This document shows positions 22,512 to 32,860 of a stretch of 64,000 nucleotides of DNA, one piece after another. The DNA lies in assembly GCF_900112845.1 (NCBI RefSeq), contig NZ_FONG01000001.1, positions 372,001 through 436,000 of the forward strand, in the 5' to 3' direction. Every line of letters begins with the position of its first letter. The first letter of the stretch is position 1. The notes beneath the pieces are model-generated. The model worked only from the letters and a program-made list of their open reading frames with translations. It ran no database searches and had not been told where the DNA came from. Source of the stretch: Actinacidiphila alni (GTDB lineage: Bacteria > Actinomycetota > Actinomycetes > Streptomycetales > Streptomycetaceae). The position numbers were made by a program, and so were the translations under genes.

Positions 22512-23378
22512 TCATGCCGCGTGGGTGGGTGCGCAGCACGTGGCTACGACGATGTCGATGGGGGACGAGCCGCTGGGGTTGGCCACGTATCCGATGTACT
22601 GGTTCTTGTCGTTGGACGGGCCGACGAGTTCACCGCCGGAGGCGTAGGCGGGAGAGGTGCCCTTGATCTTCACGTTCCCGCTGGTGGCGCGTGAATGGGC
22701 GGGGCAGATCTTTCCCGGGTAGGCCTTGTTCACGGTGCCGCCGGGGACGGTGTACTCCTGGTAGACGCCGAACACATACCCGACGCCTTGTGTGGCCGGG
22801 TCTCCCTTGGGTCCGGTGTCGCCCTTCGGTCCGGCGGGTCCGGTGGCTCCGGTGTCGCCCTTGGGTCCGGTGTCGCCCTTCTCGCCCTTGGGTCCGGCGG
22901 GTCCGGCGGGGCCTGTGTCGCCCTTCGGCCCCTGGGGGCCCTTGTCGCCCTTGTCGCCTTTCGGTCCCTTGGGGCCGGGCGGTCCGGGCAGCGGCTTGGG
23001 CGCGTTGCAGGGCTGCACGGGACCGCTGGTCGTGAGATAGCGCCCGCTCATCCAGCCCTTGCCGACCTTGAACCACTGGTCGTGACCCTGCACGACCTGC
23101 CCGGTGGCGCTGCACCGCACCGCAACGCGGGCGCCCGGCGGGTACACGCGCAGCGACGCGGAGGCACTGGTCGGCCGCTCGCGCAGATGCTGGCCGATCC
23201 GGGAGACGACACGCCCCGTGCCGGTGGCGGCGGCCTCGACCGTCCGGGCCGCGCGCGTGGATCCCGCGGCGGCTGGAGCGGCCACTGCCGCTGCCGCGAG
23301 GCTTCGTGTTGGGGACGGGGTGCCCTTCGAGGACGGTGCTGGTCCGTACGGATCGTGCGTGTGTCCTCTGCGGTGCAC
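22512..23378 (-). CDS. Secreted collagen-like protein with SH3-like domain
   Basis: About 288 residues if started at GTG 23378; no start has a clear ribosome site, so the 5' end is uncertain. A hydrophobic Ala-rich segment ([13 protein letters not shown]) near residue 30 may be the export signal. Next comes an SH3-like domain ([20 protein letters not shown]...[11 protein letters not shown]). Then follow 21 uninterrupted Gly-X-Y triplets rich in GPK, GDK and GDT (for example [20 protein letters not shown]), and a 90-residue C-terminal domain with cysteines. The triplets should form a collagen triple helix at the cell surface or outside the cell. Function unknown; matrix or adhesion roles are typical guesses. 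Confidence 0.8.
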
Positions 23379-23495
23379 AGGACACCGCTCGTAGCTCTTC
23401 CGGTTCGTCCCGGAATGCCGTGACCGACCGGCCGTGTGACAGTGACCCGTGTATCGGCCATCGGAAATCCGGATCGCTGGGAGAGGTGCGTGTCC

Positions 23496-24365
23496 ATGAC
23501 GGTGACGGCCGGCAGGAAGCCCTTGCTCGCGTCCTCGGCGGACGCCGGCCGGCAGCCGGGTCCGCTGCGGGCCGTACTGGTGGCAGCGGTGTGTCTGGCG
23601 GTGGGTCAGGCGCTGGGGTGGTGGGTGGTGCGGGAGACGGGCCTGCGGTCCGACTCCCACGGCGCGAACGCCGTCTTCAACGTCGTGGCGTTCGCGCCGA
23701 CCGCCCTCCTGCTGGTCCTGTGGGTGACGCGGTGGGAGCGCCGACCCTTCGCGAGCCTGGGCTTCCGCGGGCCGCGCGGGCTGCGCCGGGCCGTGGTCGG
23801 AGTGATCACGGCGATCGCCGGCCTGCTCGTACTGAACCTCGCTGTGTCCGCGGTCGGCGGTGGCGGTGACTCGGGGTCGGGTGCGACCGCGACCGCGGTT
23901 CAGGCCGCCTTCCTGCTCGCGTCCTTCGCCGTCCAGGCCCCCACCGAGGAGTTGCTGTTCCGCGGCTATCTGCTGCCCGCCTTGGGCCATCGGTGGGGAG
24001 CGACGGGCGGGGTGCTGTTCAGTTCGGCCCTCTTCGGCGCGGTACACCTGGTCAACGCCGGCGCGACCCCGCAGTACGCCCTGCTCACCTTCCTGCTCGG
24101 CCTGTGCCTGGCGTACTGGGCCCTGGCGGACGGCAGCCTGTGGCGGCCGGCCGCGTTCCACACCGTCTGGAACTGGGCTCCCAGCGCGCTCTCCTCGGGT
24201 GACACCACCGAGAACGGGAACGGGGCCAAGGGCCTGGACGGCCCCACCGTCACCGCGGCGGCGCTGGTCCTGCTGCTCATCGCGGCGACCGCCCTGTGGT
24301 CGTACCGCAGGGCGCGTCGGCGGCCGATGGCGGCCGGCGCCGACGCCGTCGCCCCCGGTCACTGA
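23496..24365 (+). CDS. CPBP family intramembrane glutamic endopeptidase
   Basis: 289 residues with about seven hydrophobic segments. The CPBP (CAAX protease and bacteriocin-processing) motifs are present: [13 protein letters not shown], the [10 protein letters not shown] block and HTVWNW. These enzymes cleave substrates inside the membrane, often in bacteriocin maturation or immunity, though most actinobacterial members have no known substrate. The ATG at 23496 follows GAGAGG. Nothing nearby looks like a peptide precursor. Confidence 0.9.
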
Positions 24366-25715: not shown

Positions 25716-26480
25716 TCATGCGAGGAATCCCTTGAGGGCGGTGGCGAGGGCATCGGGGCGGTGCTGCGGGATGATGTGGCCCGAGTCCCCGATCACCAGG
25801 CCCGCACGTCGTCCGCGATGGGCTGGATCTGCCGGTGGGTGGCCTCACCTACCGTCGCGCCGCCGATCGTCAGCGTCGGGGTCACCCACCGCGCCCGCCC
25901 GGCCGCCTTGGCGATCTGTCGGGCGCTGTCAGGGAAGGCGCGGTAGTACGCGAAGGCCGCCGACAGGGCTTCGCGCCCGCGGTAGGCCTCGTGGACGGCG
26001 GCGCGGAACGGTCCGGTCACGCCGTCGCCGAGTGTGCCGCCGCGCAGGAAGAAGTCGAGGTACTCGGGCTCGTGCCCGTGCAGGACGCGCTCGCCCAGCC
26101 CGGGCACCGCGTGAAAGCCGAACCACCACGGCGGTCCGCCGCGCAGGAACTCCTCCACACCGGGCAGGTCACCGACCAGGCCCTCCATCAGCACCAGCCG
26201 CCGAATCCGGTCAGGTCGGGCGATGCCGGCCATGAACGCCACCGGCGTACCGAGGTCGATGCCGACCATGTCGGCCCGCTCGATCTCCAGTGCGTCGAGC
26301 ACGCCGAGCACATCGGCCGCGACTGCGCCCGCTGTATATCCCGCGCTCGGAGCGGCCGACGCGCCCAGGCCCGGAAGGTCCGGCGCGATCACCGTCATGT
26401 TCTCGGCGAGAGCGGGAAAGACCGGCTCCCAGATCCGCCACGCGCCCGGACGCCGTGGTATCCCGGCTCCGGCGCGGTGA
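25716..26480 (-). pseudogene. Alpha/beta hydrolase (haloalkane dehalogenase/epoxide hydrolase-like), frameshifted and truncated
   Basis: The main frame reads RPGAWRIWEPVFPALAENMT then VIAPDLPGLG, DMVGIDLGTPVA (nucleophile elbow with Asp in place of Ser, as in dehalogenases and epoxide hydrolases), RIRRLVLMEG and ends early at DDVRAW. A different frame then supplies the missing C-terminus: VIGDSGHIIPQHRPDALATA, LKGFLA and a stop at 25716. The catalytic His sits in this second piece. One base is apparently missing near 25800. The first 25 or so residues, including the HG oxyanion block, are also lost upstream of about 26480. Both defects argue for a dead gene, unless the base loss is a sequencing error. 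Confidence 0.75.
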
Positions 26481-26874
26481 GGTTGGCTGATGGCGCTGAC
26501 CGGTCCCCTCCCGCGGTGGACCGGCGCCGCGGGACGGCCCTTCCCGGTCCCGGAAGCCGTCGGGTGTGTGAGGAGCCGCTCGTGCCCATCGGCGAGGGCG
26601 CGCGATCCCTCTCGTCAGTGGGCCGTGGCGTCCTGACGTTGCAGCAGTACGGCGACCCGGACGTCGCGGACCCGGGTGAGGTGGTCCCGCATGAGTTCGC
26701 GGCGCCGCCGGCGCCGCGACCGCTGAAACCCGGGTCTCGGCCGTCGCTCTTCCTCCACTTTCCGGCCACCTGAAAGCCTCCTGGAATCCTCCCAGTATTC
26801 TCATGCGGCCCTCATGTTCCCTTGGTTCCGTGTGCGAATCCGGTTCGGTCCGCAGCACATGAGCAGGGAGTCGC
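26481..26874. other. Intergenic region upstream of the VTC-type gene
   Basis: This 390-bp stretch holds the promoter of the VTC-DUF4956-CotH cluster. A short minus-strand frame (GTG near 26754 to stop near 26617; VEEERRPRPGF...LMRDHLTRVRDVRVAVLL) could encode about 46 residues or be a relic. I do not recognise it. Confidence 0.3.
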
Positions 26875-27888
26875 ATGGTGTTCCGTTCCAAGTCAGCCAC
26901 CGCGCGGGCAGGTCGGAGTGGTGCGAGCCGGGGCCTGGCGGTCCCGGCGGACGGCAGCGGAGAGCTGCCGGATCGCCAGGCAGCGGATGAGGAGCAGCCG
27001 GTTGTGGGACCGCCGGGAGAAGCGCGGCCGGACGAGCCGCTGCATGTGGCCAGCCGGCTTCACGCGTTCAACCGGTTCGAGCTGAAGTACCTGGTTCCGG
27101 TCGAGCAGGCGGCTGAGATCCGTGACGAGTTGGCCGAGCGGATGGACCGCGATCTGCACAGCCCGGTGGGTGGCTACGGCGTGTGGAGTCTGTACTACGA
27201 CACGCCCCAGCTTCGCTTCTACTGGGAGAAGATCGACGGTCTGAAGTTCCGTCGCAAGCTGCGCATCCGCTACTACGGCGACCTCGACGGGATCACCGAC
27301 GACTCGCCGACCTGCGTGGAGATCAAGCAGCGCGTCAACAGGGTCACGCAGAAGCGCCGCATCACCCTTCCCTACGGTGCGGCCCGCCGGCTTTGCGACG
27401 ACCGGGAGATGGTCGACCATTCGGCGGGAGAGAGTGCTTTCATCCAGGAGGTTCTGGAACTGAGCGTGCGGCTGAACCTGCGGCCCACCGTGATCACCGG
27501 GTACCAGCGCGAGGCCCTGGTCGGACGGCATGCCGACACCGGTCTGCGGGTCACCTTCGACCGGCGGATCCGTGGCCGGGACCGGGACCTCCACTTCGGG
27601 ATCAACGGCCCGGAGAACCGGTTCACGATGCCGCCGCACCTGTCGGTCATGGAGATCAAGGTCAACGAGCGCACTCCGCACTGGATCACCGACCTGACCG
27701 CCCGGCGCAACCTCAACCTCATCCGGGTCTCTAAATACGTCCAGGCCGTCGAGGCGTTCGGCCTGGCCCCGCGCTCGATCTTCCACGTCAACGACGAGGA
27801 CCATCCGGCGCCCACCCCCACAGACGAGCAGCCGCGCCAGCGGCGGCCGACGCAGAGCGATGCGTCATTGAAGGTAGGAGCACAGTGA
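26875..27888 (+). CDS. VTC-domain polyphosphate polymerase-like protein
   Basis: 337 residues, ATG 26875 after GGGAG. After a variable 60-residue N-terminal tail, the VTC tunnel fold begins at FNRFELKYLV. It continues with YYDTPQLRFYWEKIDGLKF, FRRKLRIRYYG, CVEIKQRVNRVTQKRR and MEIKVNERTPHW. The conserved Lys, Arg and Glu residues on alternating strands bind triphosphate and metal in yeast Vtc4, which makes polyphosphate from ATP. Bacterial members are soluble and are usually found next to DUF4956 and CotH genes, as here. Stop and next start overlap (GTGA). Confidence 0.9.
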   Translation: MVFRSKSATARAGRSGASRGLAVPADGSGELPDRQAADEEQPVVGPPGEARPDEPLHVASRLHAFNRFELKYLVPVEQAAEIRDELAERMDRDLHSPVGGYGVWSLYYDTPQLRFYWEKIDGLKFRRKLRIRYYGDLDGITDDSPTCVEIKQRVNRVTQKRRITLPYGAARRLCDDREMVDHSAGESAFIQEVLELSVRLNLRPTVITGYQREALVGRHADTGLRVTFDRRIRGRDRDLHFGINGPENRFTMPPHLSVMEIKVNERTPHWITDLTARRNLNLIRVSKYVQAVEAFGLAPRSIFHVNDEDHPAPTPTDEQPRQRRPTQSDASLKVGAQ

Positions 27889-28562
27889 ACTTCGATCTCC
27901 AGGAACTCAGCGGCACGTTCAGCGTGGCCGACGTCGCGGCGGCGATGGTGTTGTCGTTCGTCCTGTCGACGCTGATCGGCTACGTGTACCGCTATACGCA
28001 TCGCAACGTCTCGTACAGTCAGTCCTACGTGCAGACCCTGGTCATCGTGGGCATGATCGTTGCCCTGATCATGCTGGTGGTCGGTTCCAACCTGGCCAGG
28101 GCGTTCTCACTGGTCGGCGCGCTCTCGGTGGTCCGCTTCCGTAACGCGGTCAAGGAGACCAGGGACGTCGGCTTCATCTTCCTGGCCATGTCGATCGGTA
28201 TGGCGTGCGGCGCCCGCTTCTACACGCTGGCAGCGGTCGGCGCCGTGGTGATCTGCGTCGTGATCGTCGTGATGTTCCAGTTCAACTGGTTCGCACTCAA
28301 CGTGCAGCGGCAGGTCGTCAAGGTCCAGGTCCCGGCCGGGGACGACTACACCCCGCAGATCCGGGACGTGCTGATCAAGTACACCAGCGAGTTCGAGCTG
28401 GTGAGCACCGAGTCCATTCGGGGCGGAGCCCTCAGCGAGGTGTTCTACATGGTGCGCCTCAAAGCGGGTGCGGAGCCCGGCGACCTGGTCAGCGCGCTGC
28501 AGGAACGGACGTCCGGCCAGCGCGTCACGGTACTGACCGGTTATGACACCACGGACCTGTGA
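27885..28562 (+). CDS. DUF4956 membrane protein
   Basis: 225 residues with a GTG start overlapping the VTC stop. About four membrane segments fill the first 145 residues (VAAAMVLSFVLSTLIGYVYR, LVIVGMIVALIMLVVGS, AVVICVVIVVMFQFNWF). A conserved cytoplasmic motif FSLVGALSVVRFRNAVKETR lies between segments. A soluble C-terminal domain of about 75 residues follows (VKVQVPAGDDYTPQIRDVLI). The family is uncharacterised but strongly linked to VTC-domain and CotH genes. Confidence 0.9.
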   Translation: MNFDLQELSGTFSVADVAAAMVLSFVLSTLIGYVYRYTHRNVSYSQSYVQTLVIVGMIVALIMLVVGSNLARAFSLVGALSVVRFRNAVKETRDVGFIFLAMSIGMACGARFYTLAAVGAVVICVVIVVMFQFNWFALNVQRQVVKVQVPAGDDYTPQIRDVLIKYTSEFELVSTESIRGGALSEVFYMVRLKAGAEPGDLVSALQERTSGQRVTVLTGYDTTDL

Positions 28563-30292
28563 TGAGCGGCCCTGTGACGAACGGTGAGGCCGCCGCGAGG
28601 CGCGATCGGCGGCTGCGGGACCGGCTCCCCGTCCGGCTGCGCCACCACTGGAAGCCGGCGGCCGCGCTGAGCGTCGGGCTCGCCGCGATGGTCGCCCTCC
28701 TGGGCAACACACGGGTGACTCCGTATGTCACGTCGACCTCGCGGGTCGAGGGCGACCCCATCACGGACAATGTCCGCGGAGACAAGGGCCTGTTCGACGC
28801 CTCCGTCGCTCACTCGATCCAGCTCACCTACAAGCAGACCGACTTCGACAAGATGATGAAGGACTTCAAGAAGGACGGGACAAAGGACTACATCGAGGCC
28901 GATCTCGTCATCGACGGGGTCTATCTCAACGACGTCGGTATCCGGCTGAAGGGCAACTCCACGCTGTCGTCGCTGAGCGGCGGGGGCGTGCCCGGAGGGT
29001 TCGGGAAGCGCCCCGGTGGGGCAGGAGGGGCTCTGCCCGGTGCGCCCGGCGGAGGAGACGGGACCGGCGGCCAGGGCGCGGCGGCGGGCGGCGGCCCCGG
29101 TGCCCGGACCGCCGCGGGCCAGCCGGGTGGCGGAACGGGCGTCGGCGGGGGAGCCCCGGGCGGCATGGTCCAGTACAACCTGTCCGCGAAGAAGCCCGAG
29201 GAGCTGCCCTGGCTGGTCAAGATCGACGAGTTCGTCACAGGCCGCGCCTACCAGGGCCAGCGGGAGCTTTCGCTGCGCCCCGGCAGCAACGGCCAGGTCC
29301 CGTTGAACGAGGCGCTGTCCCTGTCGCTCACCCGAGCCGGCGGACAGGAGGCGGAGAAGTACGGCTTCACCACGTTGAAGATCAACAACCGGCCCGTGAC
29401 CACTCGCCTCATGGTCCAGGCACCCGACACCGACTACGCCGACTCCGTCTCCGACGGCAACGGCGTGTTGTACAAGGCGAAGGCAAGCGGCACCTTCGCC
29501 TACCGCGGTGACGACCCCAGTAAGTACGACAGCTCGTTCGAGCAGCTCAACAAGTTGGGCAGCCAGGACCTCGAACCGCTGATCAAGCTCATCAAGTGGG
29601 CGAACAAGGCGTCGGACAAGGAGTTCGCCAAGGACCTCCACAAGTACGTCGACGTCGATTCGCTGGCGGCGTACATCGCCTCTCAGAACCTGCTGCTGAA
29701 CTCGGACGACATGAGCGGCCCCGGCAAGAATTACCTGCTGTGGTACGACCTGGACACGAAGAAGTTCTCCGTCCTGGGCTGGGACTACAACCTCACCTTC
29801 GGCGGGGACGCGACGGCCGGGCCGAAGGACTCGGTGGGCATGGGCGGCGGGATGCCGGGCGGCATGCCGGGTGGCATGCCCCAGGAGATGCCGCAGGGCG
29901 CGCCCTCAGGAATGCCGGAAGGCGCGCCCGGCGGTGCGGCGGCCGGCGGACAGGGCGGTGGTAACGGCCAGACGGTGCCCGGCGGAGCGATGCCCGGCCG
30001 GGCAGGCGGCGCCGGCGGCAAGGGCGGCCCGGGAGGGATGGCGCAGCAGGTGCTCAAGACCAAGTTCCTGGCGTCGGAAACCTTCGACGGCGTCTACATG
30101 AAGGCGTATCGGGAGCTGTACCAGAAGTTCTACGGGTCGGGCTCGGCGAAGGAGGAGTTGAACGCCATCGCGCAGCAGGCGCGTGCGGCGGGCGCCGATC
30201 CGAAGACGCTGGGCACCGCGGTGTCGCAGTTGGAGAAGACCATCACCGAGCGCGCCGACGCCCTGGCCAAGAACAAGCAGGTGACCGGTTGA
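28562..30292 (+). CDS. CotH-family exported protein with Gly-rich insertions
   Basis: 576 residues; the ATG overlaps the DUF4956 stop (TGATG). A single N-terminal membrane segment (AAALSVGLAAMVALLG) should anchor it outside. CotH features include DVGIRLKGNSTL, an NYLLWYDLDTKKFSVLGWDY block and NLTFGG, the kinase-like region in which spore-coat CotH binds ATP. Two low-complexity Gly/Pro/Met/Gln-rich insertions interrupt the fold at residues about 138-202 and 425-495; one repeats GGMPGGMPGGMP. In Bacillus CotH phosphorylates coat proteins; the target here is unknown. Confidence 0.88.
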   Translation: MSGPVTNGEAAARRDRRLRDRLPVRLRHHWKPAAALSVGLAAMVALLGNTRVTPYVTSTSRVEGDPITDNVRGDKGLFDASVAHSIQLTYKQTDFDKMMKDFKKDGTKDYIEADLVIDGVYLNDVGIRLKGNSTLSSLSGGGVPGGFGKRPGGAGGALPGAPGGGDGTGGQGAAAGGGPGARTAAGQPGGGTGVGGGAPGGMVQYNLSAKKPEELPWLVKIDEFVTGRAYQGQRELSLRPGSNGQVPLNEALSLSLTRAGGQEAEKYGFTTLKINNRPVTTRLMVQAPDTDYADSVSDGNGVLYKAKASGTFAYRGDDPSKYDSSFEQLNKLGSQDLEPLIKLIKWANKASDKEFAKDLHKYVDVDSLAAYIASQNLLLNSDDMSGPGKNYLLWYDLDTKKFSVLGWDYNLTFGGDATAGPKDSVGMGGGMPGGMPGGMPQEMPQGAPSGMPEGAPGGAAAGGQGGGNGQTVPGGAMPGRAGGAGGKGGPGGMAQQVLKTKFLASETFDGVYMKAYRELYQKFYGSGSAKEELNAIAQQARAAGADPKTLGTAVSQLEKTITERADALAKNKQVTG

Positions 30293-30295
30293 CGA

Positions 30296-30347
30296 CTCCG
30301 GCATCCTGGGCCGCCCCGCGTCCGGGGGCACGCCCGGAATGCCGGAG
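30296..30347 (+). terminator. Terminator-like hairpin after CotH gene
   Basis: CTCCGGCAT (30296-30304) pairs with ATGCCGGAG (30339-30347), with a second inner hairpin (CCGGG...CCCGG). It lies directly after the CotH stop and before the two-component genes, so it may end the first transcript or reduce read-through. Confidence 0.45.
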
Positions 30348-30449
30348 CAACCGTACCCGCTTCCGTCAGCGGCGTCTGAGCCTGCCATCGCACCGCCACC
30401 GGGAACCGCTCGTGCGGTTCTGCCCATCCGTAGCTTGAGGTGCCAGAAA

Positions 30450-31202
30450 GTGATCGGCCCGAACGCACGCTCACGCCCGCCCGCGGGCGGGCACACCGTC
30501 CTGGTGGTGGAGGACGACGCCAGCATCCGCACATTGCTCACGTCTGCGCTCAGCGCGGCGGGTTACGCCGTGGCGAGCGCGGGCGGCGGGCAGGAGGGCA
30601 TGTTCGAGGCGGGCAGTCGCAGACCCGATCTGATCGTGCTCGACGTCATGCTGCCCGACACCGACGGCTTCCGCTTCACCCGTGAGCTGCGCGCGCAGGG
30701 CGTCTACACACCGGTGCTGTTCCTCACCGCCCGTACCGGGGTCGAGGACCGCATCATCGGCCTCAGCTCCGGCGGCGACGACTACGTCACCAAGCCCTTC
30801 CACGTCCAGGAGGTGCTGCTGCGTGTCAGGGCCATCCTGCGCCGCAGCGGAGCGGCCGCCTCGCCCGTCGGCGCGCGCCCGCTCCTGCAGTACGCCGACC
30901 TCGTCCTGGACGAGAGCACTCGTGAAGTCCGGCGCGGCGACTGCCTGTTGAAGCTGTCACCGACCGAGTTCCGGTTGCTTGCCTGCCTGCTGGCCCGCCC
31001 CGAGCGGGTGCTGGAGAAGGCGGAGATCCTCCAACAGGTCTGGCAGTACGACTTCTCCGGCGACACCCGCATCGTCGACAGCTACATCAAGAACCTGCGC
31101 CGGAAGGTCGACCGATCCGCGCCGCCGCTGATCCACACGGTCCGCGGGGTGGGGTACTGCCTGCGGGTGCCGCGTGACGAGACCGGCGCGGCGCCGCGAT
31201 GA
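30450..31202 (+). CDS. OmpR-family response regulator
   Basis: About 250 residues from GTG 30450, which follows GAGG at moderate distance; upstream codons in frame look non-coding. Receiver domain: acidic pair VVEDD, phospho-acceptor Asp in LIVLDVMLPD, switch Thr in FLTARTG and Lys in DDYVTKPF. The C-terminal winged helix includes LSPTEFRLLACLL and RIVDSYIKNLRRKV. It overlaps the kinase gene by 4 bp (ATGA). Its position downstream of the VTC-DUF4956-CotH genes suggests, without proof, that it controls them. Confidence 0.93.
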   Translation: MIGPNARSRPPAGGHTVLVVEDDASIRTLLTSALSAAGYAVASAGGGQEGMFEAGSRRPDLIVLDVMLPDTDGFRFTRELRAQGVYTPVLFLTARTGVEDRIIGLSSGGDDYVTKPFHVQEVLLRVRAILRRSGAAASPVGARPLLQYADLVLDESTREVRRGDCLLKLSPTEFRLLACLLARPERVLEKAEILQQVWQYDFSGDTRIVDSYIKNLRRKVDRSAPPLIHTVRGVGYCLRVPRDETGAAPR

Positions 31203-32860
31203 GGTGCCCACGCCCAAGGCTGCCGGGCCGTCTCCGGCTTTCCGCCACGCGGCTTCGACGCCCGCGCTTCCTCCCGGAGCGTCTTCCGCGTCCGCGTTCG
31301 CTGCGCAGCCGCCTGGTCCTGATCGCCGGCCTGCTGGCCACCAGCGCGGTCCTGCTCTGCCAGCTCGCCGGCCTGGCGGTGCTGCGCGGCTGGCTCACCG
31401 ACCAGGTGGACAACCGGCTCTCCCAGTTCCGCCCACCGGCCGGGGTCTACACCGACCTTGCCGAGCACGGAACGCTGCGGCCGCCGAGCGTGGACAACGC
31501 ACTGCCGTCGGACTACCGCGTCTTCTTCTACGACGGCACCGGCCGTCTTCTGCCCACCACCTTGGGCAGCGGTGACGGCGCCGGGCCGAAACTGCCCCGG
31601 CGGGCAGCCGAACTGCACCTGACCGCCGGGCGTCCCAGCACCGTTCCGGCGAAAGACGGCGCCGGCGGCGCTGGATGGAGGGTGATCTCCTACACCGGAC
31701 CTGACCGTATGCGCACCGTGGTCGCGCTGCCGCTGAGCACCGTCGACGGCGCGACGACCAAACTCCTGTGGCTCAGCCTCGGGCTAGGCGTGGCCGTCGC
31801 CGTCGGGGTGATCGCTCTCGGAAACGGTGCGGTCCGCTTGGGACTGCGTCCGCTCACCCGCGTCGAGCGCACCGCCCAGCAGATCACCGAGGGCGCTCTG
31901 GAGCTCAACGTCCCCGTGACCGACCCGGACACCGAGGTCGGCCGGCTCGGTCTCGCCCTCAACACCATGCTCGACCGTCTGCGCACCTCCCTGCACCGCA
32001 CGGCGAGCTCCGAACAGCAGTTGCGCCGCTTTCTCGCGGACGCCGGCCACGAACTGCGCACCCCGCTCACCGCGATCCAGGGCTTCGCCGAACTCCTCCT
32101 CGACGAGGCCGACATGCCGCCACGGCGGCGCTGGGAGGCGCACGCCCTGATCGCCCACAACGCCGAACGCATGAGCCGCCTCGTCGACGACCTGTTCCTC
32201 CTCGCCAAGCTCGGCGACACCCCTGCAACGTACCGCGAACCCGTCGACCTGCTCTCCGCGGCGGCCGACGCCATCGCCACCACCGCGATCCGCCACCCTC
32301 AGCACGCCATCACCCTGGAACCACTCACGGACCGTCCCGCCGACGCCGAACGCGATCTCGACATCATCGAGACCCCGGGCGACCCGCACCAGTTGGCCCA
32401 GGTACTGGGCAACCTGCTGTCCAACGCCTGCGTGCACACGCCCGCCGGCACTCGTGTCTCCGTCCGGGTCGGCGCCTCCCGCACCCGCACCGCAGCCACA
32501 TGCGGGAGCGGACCGCCGCTGCCGCCGGGCACCCCCGTATGCGTGGTCGAGGTCACCGACGACGGCCCCGGCATCAGCGCGGACGAAGCCCCTAACGTCT
32601 TCGACCGCTTCTACCGCGCGACCCCGCTCGGTGGGTCCGCCACACCGGACTTCGGCGCCGTCCCGGGGGCCGGACCCGGAACGGATCCCGGCTCAGGACT
32701 CGGGCTCGCCATCGCCTCCGCGATCGCGGCAGCACACGGCGGCCGTCTCGAACTGGACAACCGCCCCGGCGAAGGCTGCACCTTCCGCCTGCTCCTGCCC
32801 GACACGGCCACCGCCTCGCCGGACACCCACGGGCCGTGGGACCGTCCCAGCCGCCTGTGA
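31199..32860 (+). CDS. Sensor histidine kinase
   Basis: 553 residues. A basic cytoplasmic start leads to TM1 (LVLIAGLLATSAVLLCQLAGLAVL), an extracytoplasmic sensor region of about 130 residues, TM2 (LWLSLGLGVAVAVGVIAL), a HAMP linker, the HisKA box with the phospho-His in DAGHELRTPLT, and an HATPase_c domain with N box LGNLLSNACVHTP, G1 DDGPGIS and G2 GSGLGLAIA. It is the partner of the upstream OmpR-type regulator. Confidence 0.94.
   Translation: MRCPRPRLPGRLRLSATRLRRPRFLPERLPRPRSLRSRLVLIAGLLATSAVLLCQLAGLAVLRGWLTDQVDNRLSQFRPPAGVYTDLAEHGTLRPPSVDNALPSDYRVFFYDGTGRLLPTTLGSGDGAGPKLPRRAAELHLTAGRPSTVPAKDGAGGAGWRVISYTGPDRMRTVVALPLSTVDGATTKLLWLSLGLGVAVAVGVIALGNGAVRLGLRPLTRVERTAQQITEGALELNVPVTDPDTEVGRLGLALNTMLDRLRTSLHRTASSEQQLRRFLADAGHELRTPLTAIQGFAELLLDEADMPPRRRWEAHALIAHNAERMSRLVDDLFLLAKLGDTPATYREPVDLLSAAADAIATTAIRHPQHAITLEPLTDRPADAERDLDIIETPGDPHQLAQVLGNLLSNACVHTPAGTRVSVRVGASRTRTAATCGSGPPLPPGTPVCVVEVTDDGPGISADEAPNVFDRFYRATPLGGSATPDFGAVPGAGPGTDPGSGLGLAIASAIAAAHGGRLELDNRPGEGCTFRLLLPDTATASPDTHGPWDRPSRL

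Follow-up and report, generated by a model that had tools for sequence, protein, structure and literature searches.

The 64,000-nucleotide stretch of the Actinacidiphila alni genome analysed here (contig NZ_FONG01000001.1, positions 372,001 to 436,000, forward strand; hereafter the window, with coordinates counted from its first letter) contains a five-gene module encoding a VTC-domain protein, a DUF4956 membrane protein, a CotH-family kinase-like protein and a two-component pair. On the basis of sequence, predicted structure and gene neighbourhood, we read this module as a possible membrane-coupled polyphosphate synthase serving the cell envelope, to which we assign a probability of about 0.45. 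The window is high-GC DNA whose nearest relatives in searches are Streptomyces, and the module is made up of the following features.

26752..26817, + strand: array of six 11-bp direct repeats 5' of the operon, a candidate operator for OmpR-family regulators
26875..27888, + strand: VTC-domain protein (PF09359), polyphosphate polymerase-like, with a predicted triphosphate tunnel fold, cytosolic
27885..28562, + strand: DUF4956 membrane protein (PF16316) with five predicted hydrophobic helices and a C-terminal ferredoxin/ACT-like domain
28559..30292, + strand: CotH-family kinase-like protein (PF08757) with one predicted N-terminal membrane anchor and two Gly/Met/Pro-rich insertions
30451..31202, + strand: OmpR/PhoB-type response regulator (Response_reg and Trans_reg_C); the longest open reading frame (ORF) starts at 30339
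31199..32860, + strand: membrane histidine kinase (HAMP, HisKA, HATPase_c) with two predicted transmembrane segments flanking an extracytoplasmic domain of about 130 residues

The VTC protein matches PF09359 at 155 bits against a cut-off of 23, covering profile positions 1-233 of 235, and has no transmembrane segment, no hydrophobic segment and no secretion signal. A phmmer search of the PDB with the single sequence returned nothing, and the solved Vtc4 chains were matched once an alignment was used. In that alignment, residues K71, R130, R132, K151, K160, R212, R225, E260, K262 and K287 correspond to Vtc4 K200, R264, R266, K281, K294, R361, R373, E426, K428 and K458, respectively; the numbering was derived by hand from HMMER alignments, and the equivalence of K160 and K294 is less certain than the others. 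All ten tunnel residues are identical in 110 of 110 VTC sequences from the loci, including the very divergent type-2 loci described below; the window's own copy is counted twice among these sequences, and 63 of them are of the Streptomyces type. A triple R264A/R266A/E426N change has been used to inactivate yeast Vtc4 (PMC9911596). The original prediction, made from the window's sequence without database searches, had named the loss of key basic VTC residues in an alignment as grounds for its rejection; these residues are kept throughout, and a degenerate VTC protein is ruled out by the invariance of all ten tunnel positions.

The predicted structure gives Z scores of 18.3-21.8 against VTC chains (21.8 for Vtc4), and with tunnel residues and fold both kept as in Vtc4, the protein is probably an active polyphosphate polymerase. 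It is highly improbable that it is instead some other member of the wider CYTH/tunnel-enzyme family, a triphosphatase or a nucleotide cyclase, with no polymerase activity. Other tunnel enzymes do share the fold (Z 10-13.6), but VTC proteins make up all of the closest structures, well ahead of the rest, and all of the Vtc4 tunnel residues are present. ExExK is the signature of the CYTH family; the window protein has RxExK (R67, E69 and K71) in its place, with R67 and K71 equivalent to Vtc4 R196 and K200.

The second protein matches PF16316 at 82 bits against a cut-off of 30.6, and its match to MgtC (PF02308) falls below the cut-off (26.6 bits against 31.4). It is predicted to have five transmembrane helices and, at its C-terminus, a ferredoxin/ACT-like domain. 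When its structural model is compared with the PDB, the C-terminal ACT/S6-like domain is matched (best Z 9.8); the membrane part has no match among the matches listed, which says little. Five invariant basic residues (R72, R84, R86, K90 and R93) lie in or next to membrane segments, and by the positive-inside rule the basic loop at 83-93 would face the cytosol. By likeness to the yeast complex, the protein may be a channel.

The arrangement of the genes in the window is compact. ORFs and Pfam families agree with the five genes, at the same coordinates, that had been read from the sequence alone, and the overlaps described at the successive stop/start junctions of the VTC, DUF4956 and CotH genes are of 4 nt each (GTGA at both). 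An alternative CotH start, ATG at 28562, would shorten the overlap with DUF4956 to 1 nt. The OmpR/histidine kinase pair predicted downstream of CotH is present, its two genes again overlapping by 4 nt (ATGA); it does not overlap CotH, which ends about 158 nt before the GTG at 30451. This GTG is a more likely regulator start than 30339 because the receiver domain begins near residue 53 of the listed ORF. The VTC start, ATG at 26875, is backed by a ribosome-binding site (AAGGAGGCGCATGGTG) that is conserved across Streptomyces loci. The window genome has one copy each of VTC, DUF4956 and CotH.

A first set of 80 loci from Streptomyces, other actinobacteria and Chloroflexi was collected by searching with the VTC protein, and VTC, DUF4956 and CotH occur in this order in nearly all of them. 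Because a collection made in this way presupposes VTC and is biased towards close relatives, a separate survey of 296 actinobacterial genomes was conducted with Pfam models. VTC was detected in 32 genomes and DUF4956 in 33, with both in 32 (hypergeometric p ~4e-42, phylogeny ignored). DUF4956 lies within 400 bp of VTC, in either order, at 34 of 35 actinobacterial VTC loci, and the survey rules out chance adjacency of the two. CotH is found within 6 kb of VTC at 21 of the 35 loci, and a beta-helix protein of the Cthe_2159 family (PF14262) at 12, one of which has both; at the 11 loci without CotH, the Cthe_2159 protein is within about 2.3 kb. One or the other exported partner is present at 32 of the 35 loci. 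Of the three loci without one, two (G147 and G224) are close to a contig end on the side where the partner would be expected, which leaves G108 as a genuine exception. At a further locus (L102:5513-8056, - strand), VTC and CotH share a single open frame of 848 residues with a hydrophobic segment between them and DUF4956 adjacent. This fusion is a single case and could have arisen by loss of a stop codon or through faulty assembly.

The original prediction had proposed that the linkage implies one machine and that neighbourhood statistics should be gathered; these statistics place VTC beside DUF4956 almost without exception, and the recurrent exported partner, the natural VTC-CotH fusion and the unrelated flanks (vide infra) point the same way. 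Two variants were encountered in the surveys. Loci L099 and L107 belong to a second module type, in which DUF4956 precedes VTC, the CotH is divergent and an OmpR-type regulator and kinase are adjacent. In three genomes of the actinobacterial survey (G174, G186 and G260), the VTC match falls in two separate stretches of one frame, which suggests that the tunnel domain carries an insertion or has diverged in its middle part.

The CotH-family protein matches PF08757 at 97 bits and the Bacillus subtilis CotH structure 5jd9 with an E value of 7e-7. D383 and D409 are invariant in 16 sequences and align to Asp228 and Asp251, the catalytic residues of B. subtilis CotH (PMC7821199). A hydrophobic segment at 33-51 is predicted to be a single N-terminal membrane anchor, from which the protein presumably faces outward. 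The CotH domain is interrupted by Gly/Met/Pro-rich insertions at residues ~140-210 and ~425-495. Insertions of this kind recur from Streptomyces to Chloroflexi, and similar ones are present in some Cthe_2159 partners (L084-L094). A 50-residue stretch with at least 60% G/M/P/Q occurs in 82% of the CotH ORFs and 36% of the Cthe_2159 partners in the loci, and in 4% of ORFs longer than 300 residues generally.

Cthe_2159, which is absent from the window genome, is a non-kinase protein of carbohydrate-binding type that takes the place of CotH in about one third of the actinobacterial loci; since CotH can be exchanged for a non-kinase, surface phosphorylation is unlikely to be the general function of the module. 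The suggestion that polyphosphate or phosphate is used to modify surface proteins is hypothetical: CotH retains its catalytic residues and has a membrane anchor, but the replacement by Cthe_2159 speaks against such modification as a general role. A related reading, which is also that of the original prediction, has VTC-DUF4956 export a phosphate donor, either polyphosphate or a nucleotide, for CotH to use on surface proteins, ATP being scarce outside. The conserved aspartates and the anchor, the VTC-CotH fusion and the adjacency of CotH at 21 of 35 loci are consistent with it. We nevertheless consider it quite unlikely, given the 12 loci at which the non-kinase Cthe_2159 stands beside the pair, 11 of them lacking CotH, and the in vitro use of ATP by the characterised CotH (PMC7821199). 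No Ser/Lys/Arg-rich substrate resembling CotB or CotG was noticed near the window operon, although no dedicated search was made, and no paper on polyphosphate as a donor for extracellular kinases was found in the open literature.

In the mechanism favoured here, that of a membrane-coupled polyphosphate synthase, the VTC-DUF4956 pair would work like the eukaryotic VTC complex; the yeast complex couples polyphosphate synthesis to translocation (PMC9911596). The cytosolic VTC protein would use its tunnel to join terminal phosphates of ATP into polyphosphate, as residue and fold conservation suggest. DUF4956 would dock it at the membrane and pass the chain outward along the invariant arginines and lysine. 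On the outside, the exported, membrane-anchored partner, which is CotH in the window and a Cthe_2159 beta-helix protein elsewhere, may use the product or fix it in the envelope. An ordinary polyphosphate kinase, PPK1, is encoded elsewhere in the window genome, which makes a dedicated surface supply more likely than a storage route. The prediction that polyphosphate is made at the membrane is supported indirectly, by the retained Vtc4 tunnel residues and by the five-helix membrane protein with its invariant basic loop.

Several observations weigh against the synthase. VTC and DUF4956 are separate proteins, whereas the yeast tunnel and transmembrane domains are in one chain, and the VTC protein lacks an SPX sensor domain. 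DUF4956 showed no sequence similarity to the membrane domain of yeast VTC, its single-chain model is of moderate confidence (pLDDT 75, pTM 0.56), and it could be a docking or regulatory protein rather than a channel. Two loci of the first search (L066 and L069), as well as genome G108, have no recognised adjacent partner. The broader proposal that VTC-DUF4956 secretes polyphosphate for use outside, as phosphate donor for CotH or as matrix polymer for Cthe_2159, and is a general bacterial counterpart of the VTC complex that feeds surface modification independent of ATP, strikes us as decidedly doubtful.

The two-component genes are less constant. The histidine kinase has predicted transmembrane segments at 39-57 and 189-207. 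Of the Streptomyces-type loci, 53 of 62 have a regulator and kinase no more than 5 kb from DUF4956, as do 15 of 47 other loci. About five of the nine Streptomyces-type loci without the pair are cut by contig ends, and L040, L053, L061 and L068 lack it with no contig break. The best match of a Chloroflexi module regulator in the window genome is another regulator, the window's module regulator being sixth; for the regulator of an actinobacterial type-2 locus it is third and nearly tied. As the Chloroflexi regulator is not an ortholog, two-component pairs appear to have been recruited, and more than once. The non-orthologous regulator and the four intact loci without the pair rule out the two-component system as core machinery.

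A 66-bp block 5' of the VTC start consists of six in-phase 11-bp units (CCTCCACTTTC, CGGCCACCTGA, AAGCCTCCTGG, AATCCTCCCAG, TATTCTCATGC and GGCCCTCATGT) and is conserved in 50 de-replicated Streptomyces-type regions. Its self-similarity at lag 11 lies above all 2000 column permutations, and lags 10 and 12 give nothing. The Streptomyces PHO box is built of two or more GTTCACC-type 11-nt direct repeats (PMC4415409, PMC7244524). Unit 0 of the array starts with GTTCA in 37 of the 50 regions and CA-N9-CA is present in 25; the window's own unit 0 is degraded (CTCCACT versus GTTCACC), and two nearly perfect PHO units are present in L068, a locus with no kinase pair next to it. The array is PHO-box-like at its upstream end in the Streptomyces relatives, and could be an operator for OmpR-family regulators. 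Through this array, the Streptomyces operon is probably controlled by its own OmpR-type two-component system, and perhaps by PhoP as well, and may then be sensitive to the state of the envelope or to phosphate.

The resemblance to PHO boxes would also fit a cytosolic enzyme of polyphosphate or pyrophosphate homeostasis, anchored by DUF4956 and merely co-regulated with its exported neighbour. The VTC protein has no secretion signal or transmembrane segment, and the ACT-like domain of DUF4956 belongs to a type that is common in regulation by small ligands. However, the genome already has PPK1, and neither the VTC-CotH fusion nor an exported partner drawn from two families is explained by such an enzyme, which we regard as very unlikely.

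The module is self-contained. Eight ORFs flanking it in the window were tested, and none of them lies beside the module in Streptomyces relatives; they match GH92, GH25, DUF218, CAAX protease, alpha/beta hydrolase, ChW or collagen-like families, or have no match. Among 67 neighbour proteins of the non-Streptomyces actinobacterial and Chloroflexi loci, recurrence is limited to further CotH proteins, which are divergent, and to generic ABC/ATPase domains. The P-type ATPases next to L066, L069 and L072 were taken as coincidental neighbours. In 35 genomes of the window's genus, a strong VTC match is found only in the window genome, with weaker matches in three others; the self-contained module and its patchy distribution suggest transfer between genomes as a block.

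These neighbourhoods bear on the possibility that the set is an accessory to an exopolysaccharide matrix, modifying or regulating a surface polysaccharide, with CotH phosphorylating the matrix polymer or its synthase and Cthe_2159 binding acidic polysaccharide. Genes for CotH, a polyphosphate polymerase, DUF4956 and DUF4832 are contiguous with pelDEADAFG in streptococci and clostridia, with a variant in bifidobacteria (PMC7112168), the NELoc-2 locus of Clostridium perfringens carries VTC, CotH and polysaccharide genes (PMC2879425, PMC11677781), and Cthe_2159 domains bind cellulose and polygalacturonate (PMC6712302). However, no glycosyltransferase or pel family recurs among the 67 neighbours, which rules out a polysaccharide synthase as a constant neighbour outside pel clusters, and no such family is present in the eight flanking window ORFs. 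A matrix role also leaves the invariant VTC tunnel residues unexplained, and we consider it unlikely.

Two flanking ORFs deserve separate mention. The alpha/beta hydrolase ORF just upstream of the module (25793-26398, - strand) is matched by Pfam from profile position 29 and is apparently truncated at its 5' end. An ORF at 22512-24362 (- strand) contains collagen-like Gly-X-Y repeats and an SH3-like stretch, and may encode an exported bacterial collagen-like protein; it overlaps the CAAX-protease gene on the opposite strand, and the actual gene is likely to be considerably shorter.

Research on polyphosphate in bacteria has focused on PPK1 and PPK2. If the synthase reading is correct, the module would add a third route, coupled to the membrane and related to the VTC complex of eukaryotes, and would explain how polyphosphate reaches bacterial surfaces. 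It would also offer extracellular kinases a supply of phosphate, and would provide a testable function for two uncharacterised families, DUF4956 and bacterial VTC, as well as for the neighbouring CotH and Cthe_2159 proteins. The gene set itself is already known from Gram-positive pel clusters (PMC7112168) and from C. perfringens NELoc-2 (PMC2879425, PMC11677781), whereas the strict VTC-DUF4956 pairing, the CotH/Cthe_2159 exchange and the repeat array appear to be new. No functional study of the module, and no account of the alternation, the fusion, the residue conservation or the array, was found in the open literature, a scope that leaves out most subscription journals and preprints.

Of the known systems, the eukaryotic VTC complex (Vtc4/Vtc3/Vtc1) resembles the module in its tunnel-domain fold, the ten tunnel residues, a membrane component and, putatively, polyphosphate at the membrane. 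It differs in that the window's catalytic chain has neither an SPX nor a transmembrane domain, the membrane partner is a separate DUF4956 protein with no detected similarity, and an exported partner is encoded alongside. The Gram-positive pel accessory genes (cotH, polyphosphate polymerase, DUF4956 and DUF4832; PMC7112168) have three of four families in common with the window operon, contiguous in both. In the window operon, a two-component pair and 11-bp repeats are seen instead of adjacent pel genes or DUF4832 (neither pelDEADAFG nor DUF4832 was among the eight flanking ORFs scanned, which are a part of the window), and the module is free-standing in Streptomyces and Chloroflexi. The spore-coat kinase CotH of B. 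subtilis shares its Pfam family and the Asp228/Asp251 equivalents with the window protein, which differs in its N-terminal anchor and two Gly/Met/Pro-rich insertions; no CotB/CotG partner was seen, with no search dedicated to one, and the host forms no endospores. Finally, Cthe_2159, although absent from the window genome, adjoins VTC-DUF4956 in loci that lack CotH.

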